Part shown: piece by piece, positions 47,458 through 53,400 of the stretch
How positions within the stretch are numbered: position 1 is the first letter of the stretch
How the letters are laid out: the number at the start of each line of letters is the position of its first letter
Source: Liolophura sinensis
Lineage: Eukaryota > Mollusca > Polyplacophora > Chitonida > Chitonidae
Reading direction: 5' to 3'
NCBI RefSeq assembly: GCF_032854445.1
Contig: NC_088295.1
Coordinates: 44,999,385 to 45,063,384 of the forward strand
DNA length: 64,000 nucleotides
Translations under genes and position numbers: made by a program
The notes under the pieces: generated by a model
What the model saw: only the letters and a program-made list of their open reading frames with translations
Told to the model about the DNA's origin: nothing
Databases searched by the model: none

Positions 47458-50400
47458 TTACTCCACAGTGACAGACTTGGCCAAATTCCGCGGACAATCG
47501 ACCTATGGAGAAGAGAAACAAACACAGCGTTGCTCAAGCCAGGGCTGAATATAGGTGTCTGCGGCAGCTTAGAGCTTGTCCTACAGCCTGGAGGCCACAA
47601 GGAAAGCTATAGGGGCACGGCAGCGCAGATATACCAGGGGGCGATTCCACCAAGCCATTTCCGATGTAAATCATATTTTGAAATACACTCTTAAAGCTTA
47701 TTTTTGGACGTTAAAAATTAACATATTATCCACTTCATCAATGTTATTTTAAGACAAATGTGTCCAAATTTCAATTCCCAGTGACAAAAACTAATCTTCG
47801 TAAAGAGCCCATAAATTTTGACGTAACTCATGAATGGCTTTGTAGAATCAGCCCAAGGAGGCAAAGATAGGACGTTCCTACTTAATACAAAAATATGATA
47901 GGGAAGGAGCTGGTAAAGAAACACCTGTAAGAGCATTTGTGAGCTGCCTACTTTAATAATGGTGGAGAAATCAAATACATGATGCAAGACTATGGAAAGT
48001 TATTTGCAAGTATGGTTTTCAGATATTCTTTTATCCAGTCTTAGATATTTCAGAATACTATTTGTGCATTGGGTATTTGAGACCACCTCTTGGTATAGGA
48101 GTTACATTACTGTATAAATATGCTCTTGATAAGGATGTCATATGCTTTTATTCAGCTCATAAGTTTATTATTAATGCTAAATATAAATGCACCTTATTTG
48201 TGGACCATAAATGGAACGGTGTATGTATTGATATGCAGCCACAATATACACATACAAGCATTCATTACATATTCCAATGCACTCAGCTTTTCACATTTTC
48301 ATGATAATAAAAGAAAAGTTCTAAACTCTACCAGATTTACTTTGGATGAATCAATAAAATAATAAGCCACTAGATTTTGTACATTTAATAAAATACACAG
48401 ATGCAAATTCATGGGAAGAGAAACACTTAAATAATTGTGATTATTCTAAAAATGATTTTTATAAAGTTTGAAATTAGGAATTTCTGCATATCTAAAACAT
48501 GGATCGAATTTCAATCGGATGCTTTGTGTTTAATCTAGAAAACTTCTTTCGATTATGAAAAATTTACTCTTACTCAAAATTGACACACAATCAAAACAAG
48601 CATTCCTTGACTCAGAATCTTCTTACCAAGGCCAGAAAGCAGAAGCTTAATGGCAGCAAATCAATCACATATACACTGAAGCATATATATATATATGTAC
48701 ATACACAGACTGCAAATTTTAAAAGCAATTTTCTTTTAAAACAAAAAGCGTTTAAACATCATACTTTCCTTTAATCACAAACCACTCAAACAGAGCTGGG
48801 TTCAACATAGACCAATCCAGGTGGAAATCATAGTTCAAATTAAGAGTTACACAATGTATAGAAATTAAAATTTTTGCCTAGTTAACATTTTCTGAACTGC
48901 TGTCATATACTAGTATATGCTTTCCCAAACAGCTGACAAAGAACAAAGCTCATCGGTGGACAACAATTTCTTTTTTTTTTTTAAATCTAAACATTCCAAA
49001 TCACCTGAATTCATCTATACACTCAATTGCAACCTCAAAAACCTCTTTTCCCCCCATCACCATATTAGTCACACAAAGGCAGCGAGTGTTAGTGAACTGA
49101 GCATAGAGCTAATCTTTCAAGGCTGTAAGAGCTTCATCAGTAAGTCTTCAAATGGCCTATATAATATGAATTTCAGAGGGATTAAAACTTTAAGTGCTTG
49201 GGGGTAAATGTCAAATGAGTGGAGTTTCTATTCATGTCTTTTGCAACCAATGGTAATATTTCAATGGGCCATAAGCACAGTGCAATGCAATTACAAATTC
49301 AACTTGAAAACATCAGGCCAGAGTTGTTAGGGCATCCCTTCAATACTTTGTTACTGTTGATGGGTTTTCTTTTGATTATCTTGTTTTGTCCCCCAAAGCT
49401 ACATTCTCTGCTGATGTTTCTTCAGCAGTTCTACAAGATGGTCCTTCCTTCAATCTTCTCATAACATGGGTCATTCACTAAACAAGAGGCCTGCATGCAA
49501 GACGACATGAAATCTTACAAGGCAAGATGTTGTAGTGAATTCGTGCCTCTGTAGCAAATGCAAATGAGACATGGTAGATGTCAAGAAAGTATTTTACTGT
49601 CATTTAATGAGGTATCTATAGAATTGATTGATTGTTTAATGCAATACTCCTCCATGTTGATCAGTTTTATGGGTGGAGGAAATTGGGGAGTCTAAGCAAT
49701 GCCCTTTTGCAAGTTCCAGAAAACTGGACAAAACAAGATAAAAAGCAAGAAGTGCCTGTGCGTGTATTAAAGGAAGGTGAGGAGGGTGTGTGGGGAATGT
49801 TAGATTTCTTCTGTGACAAACTTCACTCTGTGCTTTTGAAAGGGTTTCATGCTTCAAACTCAAGCAACTTTGCTGAACATCAGCTTACATCCAACTCCCG
49901 GAGAACAGCAATATGGAAAGAAAGTAGCTGCATGGGAACGACACAAAGGACGCCCTGCAGACAGTCGACAGTATGGGTGATCTCCACGGACTTATAAGCA
50001 TGCTTTCTCGTTTCCTCGTCGCCTTTGTTACATATGACAATGGGGCGTCCCTATATAAAAAGAGTACAGTATAAATGTGGACGAGTGCAGTGAGTTTAGA
50101 GGTGAGTGAAAGAGACGAAAAAGCAGCCCAGCGATGACGTAGACCCACTGCAAAAAAAAAAAAAAAAAAAAAAAGAAAAGGAAAAAGTAAAACGTACACG
50201 TCCCTCTCTCTCTCTCTGCTATGCATTCAGCAGACAGTGATAACAGCCTCATTAAAAACCTGAAGCATACTTTGGTCTGGAATAGGAATATCGGCTGATC
50301 TTGTTGGTGAGATATTTTTGTGGACAAAAAAATTTCATGAGGAAAAAAAATACTACTCACATAAAAAGTCAATGTCAATATTCTTCTATTTATACGAACA

Positions 50401-53400
50401 CAGACTTAAATTTGCATTTTGAACTAATGAAACCACTTTTGATTTAGTGTGAGAGAAATTTGGGCCAATAGACTCAGTCACAACACCTTGTGTTATCCAG
50501 ACATTTGCATGCTTTTATAATGAGGCTGTCAACACTTACAAATCAGACAACAATCAAATTAAGCGAGTTATACAGGGGAGATGACTCTGCAAGGTGTAGC
50601 CCTCTCCCTAAGCAGGACCAATGGTACAAGGGTAACTGGGTGGGGTTATGAGACCAGCCCTTCTTGATGCACCAATGGCTGCTTAGACATGCTTACATCA
50701 CAATTCCGCAGCTCGGCGATATGCAGTGATAACAGCTGCATGGGTATAATGGTCAGGACGCCTTGTAGGCAGTCTATCGTGTGCGGAACTTCGATGCATT
50801 TAGACCCTTGCGCCAGAGTTTCCGCATCACCATGATTGCAAATAAGAATTGGATCACCCTAGAATGACAAGTAAGAAAAATAAAATGATCATGCTTGCAT
50901 TATGGCATCTTTACAGACAAATTCTACACTATTAAAAAAAAAAATAAAACAGCCAAGACTAATTTTTCAACAGGAATCCAGGAATCAAAATTATGAAGAG
51001 AAAAAAAAAATCATCAGTAAGATCTGTACTCTCTGTGTAATTCAATATTTATCTCTTATACAACCTACATTTTATCACTTATTTGCCTTGAGAACAGAGG
51101 TTACACAACAATTTGAATATAAGGGAATCTAAATTCAGATTTCCGAAGATTCCTGTGAGGCGAAGTACGTGAATCCACGGAGATTGTGTCAAAATTTAAC
51201 GAAAAATGAGCCCTGGTAGGGATTATTTCAGTTTATGTAGATATTTCTCCAAAATATGATTGTATACATGTGAATGAATAATTAATCACGTAATGCTATT
51301 CACGCCAAACAGACAATCACATGACATGCACATGAATCTTGTTAGGATGAATTTCAAAATTTTCTCACTTTCCATAGAATTAATCATGACCAAAGCTTGT
51401 ACTTCAGCACATGAGATAATCCTTGCTTTCTGTTTGCTAACTATTCGTTATATTTATTTATCAATTTAATTTAATTTTATTTCATACTCATGAATATTTC
51501 ACTTATATGACTGCAACCAGCATTATACGGTGGGAGGAAACTGGGCAGAGCCCGGGGGAAACCACAACCATCTACAGGTTGCTGGGAGACCTCATGTGTG
51601 ACCAGAGAAGAACCTGGCATGACTTGGACTTGAACTCACAGTTAACAAATTGGTGACAGGCTCTCTGATCATTGTGCCACACTTGCACGCTAACCACCAG
51701 GCTACGTAGCGGCCTGGTGTACATGCCCCTTTAGTTATAATGCTGAATGTTGCTTTACTAATGTATGGAAGGAATAGAAAAACGGTACAAAATGATATAA
51801 AAGTCAAAAATCCAAAGAAACCAAATTGGTTTTTCATCTCTACTATGATAACTACTTTTGTTTTACATTATGTTTTGACACTGATACTAATTATGAAAAG
51901 GTTTATTTTATGTTACACTCTATTTCATGATATTTTAAACTGTCAAGAACATCAACTTACATGTCTGGCCTTGACTTGCTGGAGAGCATTCATGCATTTC
52001 TGAAAAATGGAAAATGACAAATACATTAAAAACCATGGAAACTCAATGGAAAGCATGTTACATAAAGGTTAGAAAATTGTGTAATTTTCTTTCTTCCCCC
52101 ACCTTATGTGAAAATAGGTGAAACTGTTTGTGAACAAAGAGACAAACAAAGAGTTGGAGATTGGGTATATACAACCTTCTGAATCCCTTTGCCAATGCTT
52201 TGCAGACCAATAACACTGTGAAATACAAAATTACACTTGCCCAAAAAAGCGAACTCATCTTGTGATGGTTGGTTATATTTATGGAGAATAATAGTTTTTT
52301 TTGAAAGCAACAAAAGAAGTCTGGTTAAAGACTGTTCAACTAGATGCTAATCCTAACATTCCCCACCACAACCCATCCCCAATCACCCTTCTGTAGTTTT
52401 GGGGGGAAATAAAGAGGATTTAAATATACTGGGAAGTATAGGCCTGCCTAAGATTTGTAAAATTTGATGAAGACGGAAAACAAATAAATCAGCTCATAGT
52501 TTATGCACCAAATTCAAACTGTCTTACAAATAGGTTTTGAGATATCTTTCTCACGATTATGCTACACAAATAGACAAACCAACTGACACACCCACCCACT
52601 AACAGGAGAAAATTACATTGGAATGTGGACATAACTAAGTCAGCTCATACTTACAGAATGTACATGGTCTCGTGTGACAATCATCATGACTGGCATAGCC
52701 TTGTCCACCAGTGCCAGGGGCCCATGCTTCAACTCCCCAGCCATAATGCCCTCAGAGTGCATGTACGTCAGCTCCTTAATTTTCTGTTACGGACATGACC
52801 AAAGAGAAATTGCAAAGCATCAGTACACATACTTTATTAATTTCATTGCAGTTTTGCATTATAGCCACTTCATTTAACAAATGTGTTCTCTTTTTCTGTA
52901 ACAGGAGTGTTTCCAACACTGAATGCCTCCAACATCACTAACAGAAATTACAATACTTACTTACAATACAATTACACAGAAGTGAACACAGCAAAACACT
53001 GCATTCACTTATATCACAGTGGTCAAGTTTATGGATTGGGAAAATCAAGGCCAAAACACTGGCCTTCTCCAGACGCTGGGTATCACGTGTCTGGGGGGAA
53101 AACCATGAACCCGGATATGAATCTACATCACAAGTGTCCCATGCAGCGATTGGACAAATGTCTAGTGTTTGCAAAGGCAAGAATGCCTAAAAAGGCGAAA
53201 GTCAGAAAGGGTCCACATAAAGCATGGTATCTTATTCAAAATGTCATATAGTATATTTTGCTGAATAACAATAAATACAATATACAACAAATTAATGCCT
53301 TCAGCATTATTGAGTAAATGATTTTTAATTCCACTTTCAGTTCATGCTCAGTACAACTTTCCCTCCCAGCTGTCCCAAGAATTTTACTGTTAATCTCATT

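Follow-up and report, generated by a model that had tools for sequence, protein, structure and literature searches.

A chiton GFPT gene with two candidate versions of an isomerase-domain exon and two candidate terminal exons

Overview

The whole of the locus described here is, with good probability, best explained as a functional glutamine:fructose-6-phosphate amidotransferase (GFPT) gene that uses exon A or exon B, and then tail 1 or tail 2. A and B would go back to an ancient tandem duplication of one 54-codon exon and be interchangeable versions of the segment corresponding to human residues 614–667, and in the pre-mRNA a 39-nt exon is most likely spliced to either A or B, singly. Whichever version is taken would then be joined to one of two terminal exons, supplying either a C-loop with KSVTVE or a C-loop with KTYTLMHMDS. 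Tissue or state would control the choice, and the resulting isoforms would differ in the coupling of glutaminase to isomerase rather than in core catalysis. The two choices lie next to each other and together would allow as many as four enzyme forms from this single gene.

The GFPT locus and gene model

The window, that is, the whole 64-kb stretch of DNA analysed (C1:44999385-45063384), belongs to a genome of 609 Mb in 632 contigs; coordinates given below without a contig name are window positions. The 632-scaffold assembly was published as Liolophura japonica (PMC11068029), a species assignment since revised to L. sinensis (PMC12441733). The mitochondrial contig shows the chiton (Katharina) type of gene order, and the animal is accordingly a chiton. 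Elsewhere in this assembly, contig C99 carries seven copies of mitochondrial cox1 at intervals of approximately 15.5 kb, resembling a head-to-tail series of mitochondrial genomes, and this series represents either an assembly artefact or an insertion.

Protein-to-genome alignment with human GFPT1, a query whose exon region agrees with PDB sequences, places the GFPT gene at C1:45077995 to 45046845 (minus strand), with its 5′ half falling outside the window. The resulting model is intact between GIFVYLNY and KSVTVE, with poor support for three short linker exons within it; the first exon, expected to be small and to encode Met-Cys with the catalytic Cys2, was not located in this protein-to-genome model. 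Within one GFPT intron, a 103-base tandem repeat extends over 10.4 copies (57232-58307), and Rfam gives no match anywhere in the window.

The full-length product matches the glmS equivalog profile with 636.3 bits when it carries exon B, 635.3 bits with exon A, and 619.0 bits with exon A and tail 2, against a cut-off of 418. By this full-length match the gene is a GFAT/GlmS, an isomerizing glutamine-fructose-6-phosphate transaminase. The active-site residues of human GFAT1 are kept among those that can be read, while among the UDP-GlcNAc contacts Thr458 is replaced by Ser and the linker residue Gln310 by Lys. Specifically, a constitutive 129-nt exon (52655..52783, minus strand) carries the equivalents of human Lys558, Glu561, and His577, which together with Lys676 form the isomerase catalytic set; these four and Thr679 have equivalents in both GFPT genes of this genome and with both tails. 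A constitutive 39-nt exon encoding 13 residues (51961..51999, minus strand) lies directly upstream of the alternative pair.

Exons A and B encode the same segment of the isomerase domain

Exon A (50697..50858, minus strand; protein ending ELRNCD) and exon B (49889..50050, minus strand; protein ending VLRELD) each span 162 nt and 54 codons, and are separated on the same strand by an intron of 646 nt (50051..50696). Both are free of stop codons, are in phase 0, follow an AG acceptor, and share the donor context GAT|GTAAGC, with weak splice sites at both of their ends. They thereby form neighbouring homologues of equal phase and similar length, one of the features of mutually exclusive exons. An assembly error as the source of the pair was ruled out, the two exons lying 646 nt apart on one contig and differing at 39% of their bases. 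An earlier note on this DNA had described two 162-nt exons with acceptors, a shared donor, phase 0, and about 61% identity, placed between the 39-nt exon and the exon with the KSVTVE tail, and these particulars are all correct; its account of the locus omitted tail 2, the second GFPT gene, and the low strength of the splice sites of both exons.

The two exons encode 33 identical residues out of 54 (61%) and are 60.5% identical in DNA. Human GFAT1 residues 614–667 align to both without gaps and end to end or nearly so (E of about 1e-14 for A and 1e-17 for B), with 27/54 residues identical in A and 31/54 in B. The Pro of the VPHT motif is absent from B and kept in A, and A is altered at positions 2, 45, and 49. 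Each version thus has its own departures from the shared pattern, and neither is simply ancestral. Genome-wide searches with A and with B recover only three copies of the 162-nt exon.

Differences between A and B are distributed 15/10/39 over the three codon positions, with dN of approximately 0.28 and dS saturated, and residues common to both are written with the same codon in only 10 of 32 cases. In neutral simulations started from B and run to the observed nucleotide divergence (n = 5000), no more than 26 of the 54 residues were kept, compared with the 33 observed, so the likeness of the two exons is not a matter of chance. The combination of saturated synonymous sites with this dN indicates that A and B have both been kept as coding sequence, and, together with the equal glmS scores and the weak splice sites, it lends support to the reading of A and B as alternative forms of the same exon, both maintained by selection. 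That exon A is merely a relic no longer in use is very improbable: it does lie further from the human sequence than B and has the weakest acceptor, but that its frame stays open, its length exact, and its splice sites in place, with 61% protein identity past synonymous saturation, would be unexpected without selection, and it is A that retains the Pro of VPHT lost from B.

Splice sites and the choice between A and B

A splice-site weight matrix derived from the remaining exons of the two GFPT genes (30 acceptors and 31 donors) assigns the acceptors of A and B 4.5 and 6.9 bits, respectively, against a median of 10.9 for the other exons, and assigns both donors 5.2 bits against a median of 9.0. 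Given the small training set, the weaker sites of A and B constitute a trend. Regulated exons usually have weak splice sites. Among the acceptor-like sites of the region, the strongest is a CAG at 50148..50150 (minus strand), which follows a long T run (T run and CAG together, 50148-50190) and is situated 97 nt upstream of the exon B acceptor; splicing to this strong decoy would cause a frameshift.

The lengths of A and B are divisible by three, so that joint inclusion and joint skipping both keep the frame. The frame thus does not enforce exclusivity, the 646-nt spacing rules out simple steric hindrance, and all sites are of the GT-AG type. For intron–intron RNA pairing, the best energies lie near the range of shuffled sequences and are not clearly stronger, in a comparison with 12 shuffles only. 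Splicing-factor motifs (GCATG, YGCY, PTB, and others) show small excesses at most, uncorrected for the many tests made; GCATG occurs nine times in 5.4 kb here, slightly above the window average. In human GFPT1, Rbfox controls exon 9 (PMC10514471). Many known mutually exclusive pairs have none of the recognised enforcing mechanisms, which are frame shift, steric hindrance, U2/U12 incompatibility, and docking-selector pairing (PMC5740500).

These properties bear on an alternative in which exclusion between A and B is incomplete, a sizeable fraction of transcripts carrying both exons, with 54 extra residues, or neither. Every combination keeps the frame and no enforcing mechanism was found, as such a mode would allow; the segment is nevertheless integral to a folded SIS domain, so that its duplication or loss should break the fold, an argument also made for human mutually exclusive exons that lie within folded domains (PMC5740500). 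When a fragment holds A and B in tandem, the glmS profile aligns to it only in two separate stretches, which implies that joint inclusion would duplicate the folded segment, and non-exclusive use is for these reasons unlikely. Use of A or B one at a time is the best reading, resting on the folded segment and on precedent.

A second GFPT gene carries one version of the exon and one tail

Protein-to-genome alignment locates a second full-length GFPT gene at C1:266910-331367 on the minus strand. This paralog is 66% identical to the first gene overall and 75% identical in the isomerase part, and both genes keep the readable catalytic residues and nearly all UDP-GlcNAc contacts. It contains one copy of the 162-nt exon and terminates in TDQPRHLLKTYTIKDD followed by a stop codon, a tail of the second type. 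In the stretch that runs from the paralog's 162-nt exon to a point 37 kb beyond its tail, no canonical tail was found, nor did a pattern search reveal one elsewhere in the genome. At C1:280374-281702 and 284363-285368, arrays with units of about 100 bases and 65 bases adjoin two of the paralog's exons, and the array units seem to hold pieces of those exons.

The identities of A to B, of A to the paralog exon, and of B to the paralog exon are each 33/54. A tree test on A, B, the paralog, and human accepted all three topologies, and a scan for a bacterial outgroup found no relatives.

Two terminal exons

A scan for the C-terminal peptide identifies two terminal exons on the minus strand. Tail 1, the canonical terminal exon (47458..47502), encodes 14 residues ending in KSVTVE behind an acceptor of 13.3 bits, and is followed by an AATAAA polyadenylation-like signal at 47358..47363 on the same strand. 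Tail 2, the alternative terminal exon (46717..46773), encodes VDQPRHLLKTYTLMHMDS up to its stop codon and is entered in phase 0 through a strong acceptor (TTTCATTTTTCAG), which at 11.7 bits ranks fourth among the 303 AGs of the region. Each tail therefore has an in-phase acceptor and a stop codon of its own, the sequence-level form of alternative last exons. Tail 2 keeps Lys676 and Thr679, alters Asn673, Ala675, Ser677, Val678, Val680, and Glu681, and is four residues longer. Its substitutions include Ala675 to Leu and Val678 to Tyr, at positions (E. coli Ala602 and Val605) that line the ammonia channel.

Over the first 12 codons, tail 2 and the paralog tail share 11 residues, with three codons identical, eight synonymous, and one changing the residue; none of 20,000 neutral simulations gave an equally good agreement, and the motif of this second tail type occurs exactly twice in the genome. 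The sharing of 11 of 12 residues despite eight synonymous differences, with the motif found just these two times, points to tail 2 being old and selected as coding, and on this comparison it has been under such selection since the two genes parted. Because both genes carry the second type, the duplication of the tail is older than the split between them. A different reading, in which the gene uses tail 1 alone and tail 2 is a leftover, would leave the A/B choice standing; it can draw on tail 1 coming first with its own polyadenylation-like signal and on the several altered C-loop residues, but it is improbable in view of the close match to the paralog's only tail across synonymously different codons and of the strong, in-phase acceptor.

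Predicted consequences of the exon swaps

The A/B segment corresponds to human residues 614–667 of the second SIS domain. Among the UDP-GlcNAc and sugar-site contacts listed for human GFAT1 (PMC7000685), none falls within this segment. The earlier suggestion that the swap would alter the UDP-GlcNAc response finds no footing in these positions, and Asp667 is kept in both versions. In human GFAT1, Asp667 adjoins the C-loop and, in the open state, is paired with Arg33 (PMC7000685); it is the last residue of the swapped segment and the one documented functional residue there, and the paralog has it as well. The C-loop itself lies over the sugar site and is in contact with both active sites, and the activity of human GFAT1 suffers from C-terminal tags (PMC7000685).

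From this geometry, we infer that the isoforms may differ in domain coupling or ammonia transfer. A bolder proposal, less likely than not, is that the second C-loop, with Leu675, Tyr678, and a longer C-terminus, alters ammonia transfer or coupling, such that splicing would switch enzyme behaviour among up to four enzymes and the paralog would have kept the second mode only.

GFAT is the enzyme at the start of amino-sugar synthesis, and hence of chitin synthesis. It governs how much sugar enters UDP-GlcNAc, from which chitin is built and proteins are glycosylated; chitin is much used by chitons, for example in the radula. Natural swaps that have been under selection would show which parts of this rate-limiting, otherwise very conserved enzyme can be retuned. 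In addition, swaps in the isomerase domain and the C-loop would offer ready-made variants for probing communication between the GFAT active sites.

Comparison with known systems

The A/B pair appears to be a real alternative exon pair of a known kind, in an enzyme for which the papers searched describe no such pair: neither a mutually exclusive GFPT exon pair nor a second-tail arrangement was found in the open-licence papers searched, where absence is weak evidence. Human PGM1 has mutually exclusive duplicated exons, one copy of which has been lost from PGM5 (PMC9741552). As in PGM1 and PGM5, the exons here are adjacent homologues of equal length and phase that encode one folded segment, and a paralog has a single version; PGM5 thus provides a precedent for a paralog that has lost one of the two exon copies (PMC9741552). 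Unlike in PGM1, the pair resides in a GFAT gene, and a further candidate choice, at the terminal exon, comes after it.

Alternative splicing of a GFAT gene is itself known from human GFPT1, in which exon 9 is a 54-nt muscle exon giving GFAT1-L (PMC10514471). That exon, however, is an 18-residue cassette insert in the N-terminal half of the protein, whereas A and B would substitute for one another within the isomerase domain and represent a different exon. The outcome also resembles the vertebrate paralogs GFPT1 and GFPT2 in giving two GFAT forms per animal; here, in contrast, the two forms would come from a splice choice inside one gene, alongside a second gene for which the second type of tail is the only one found.
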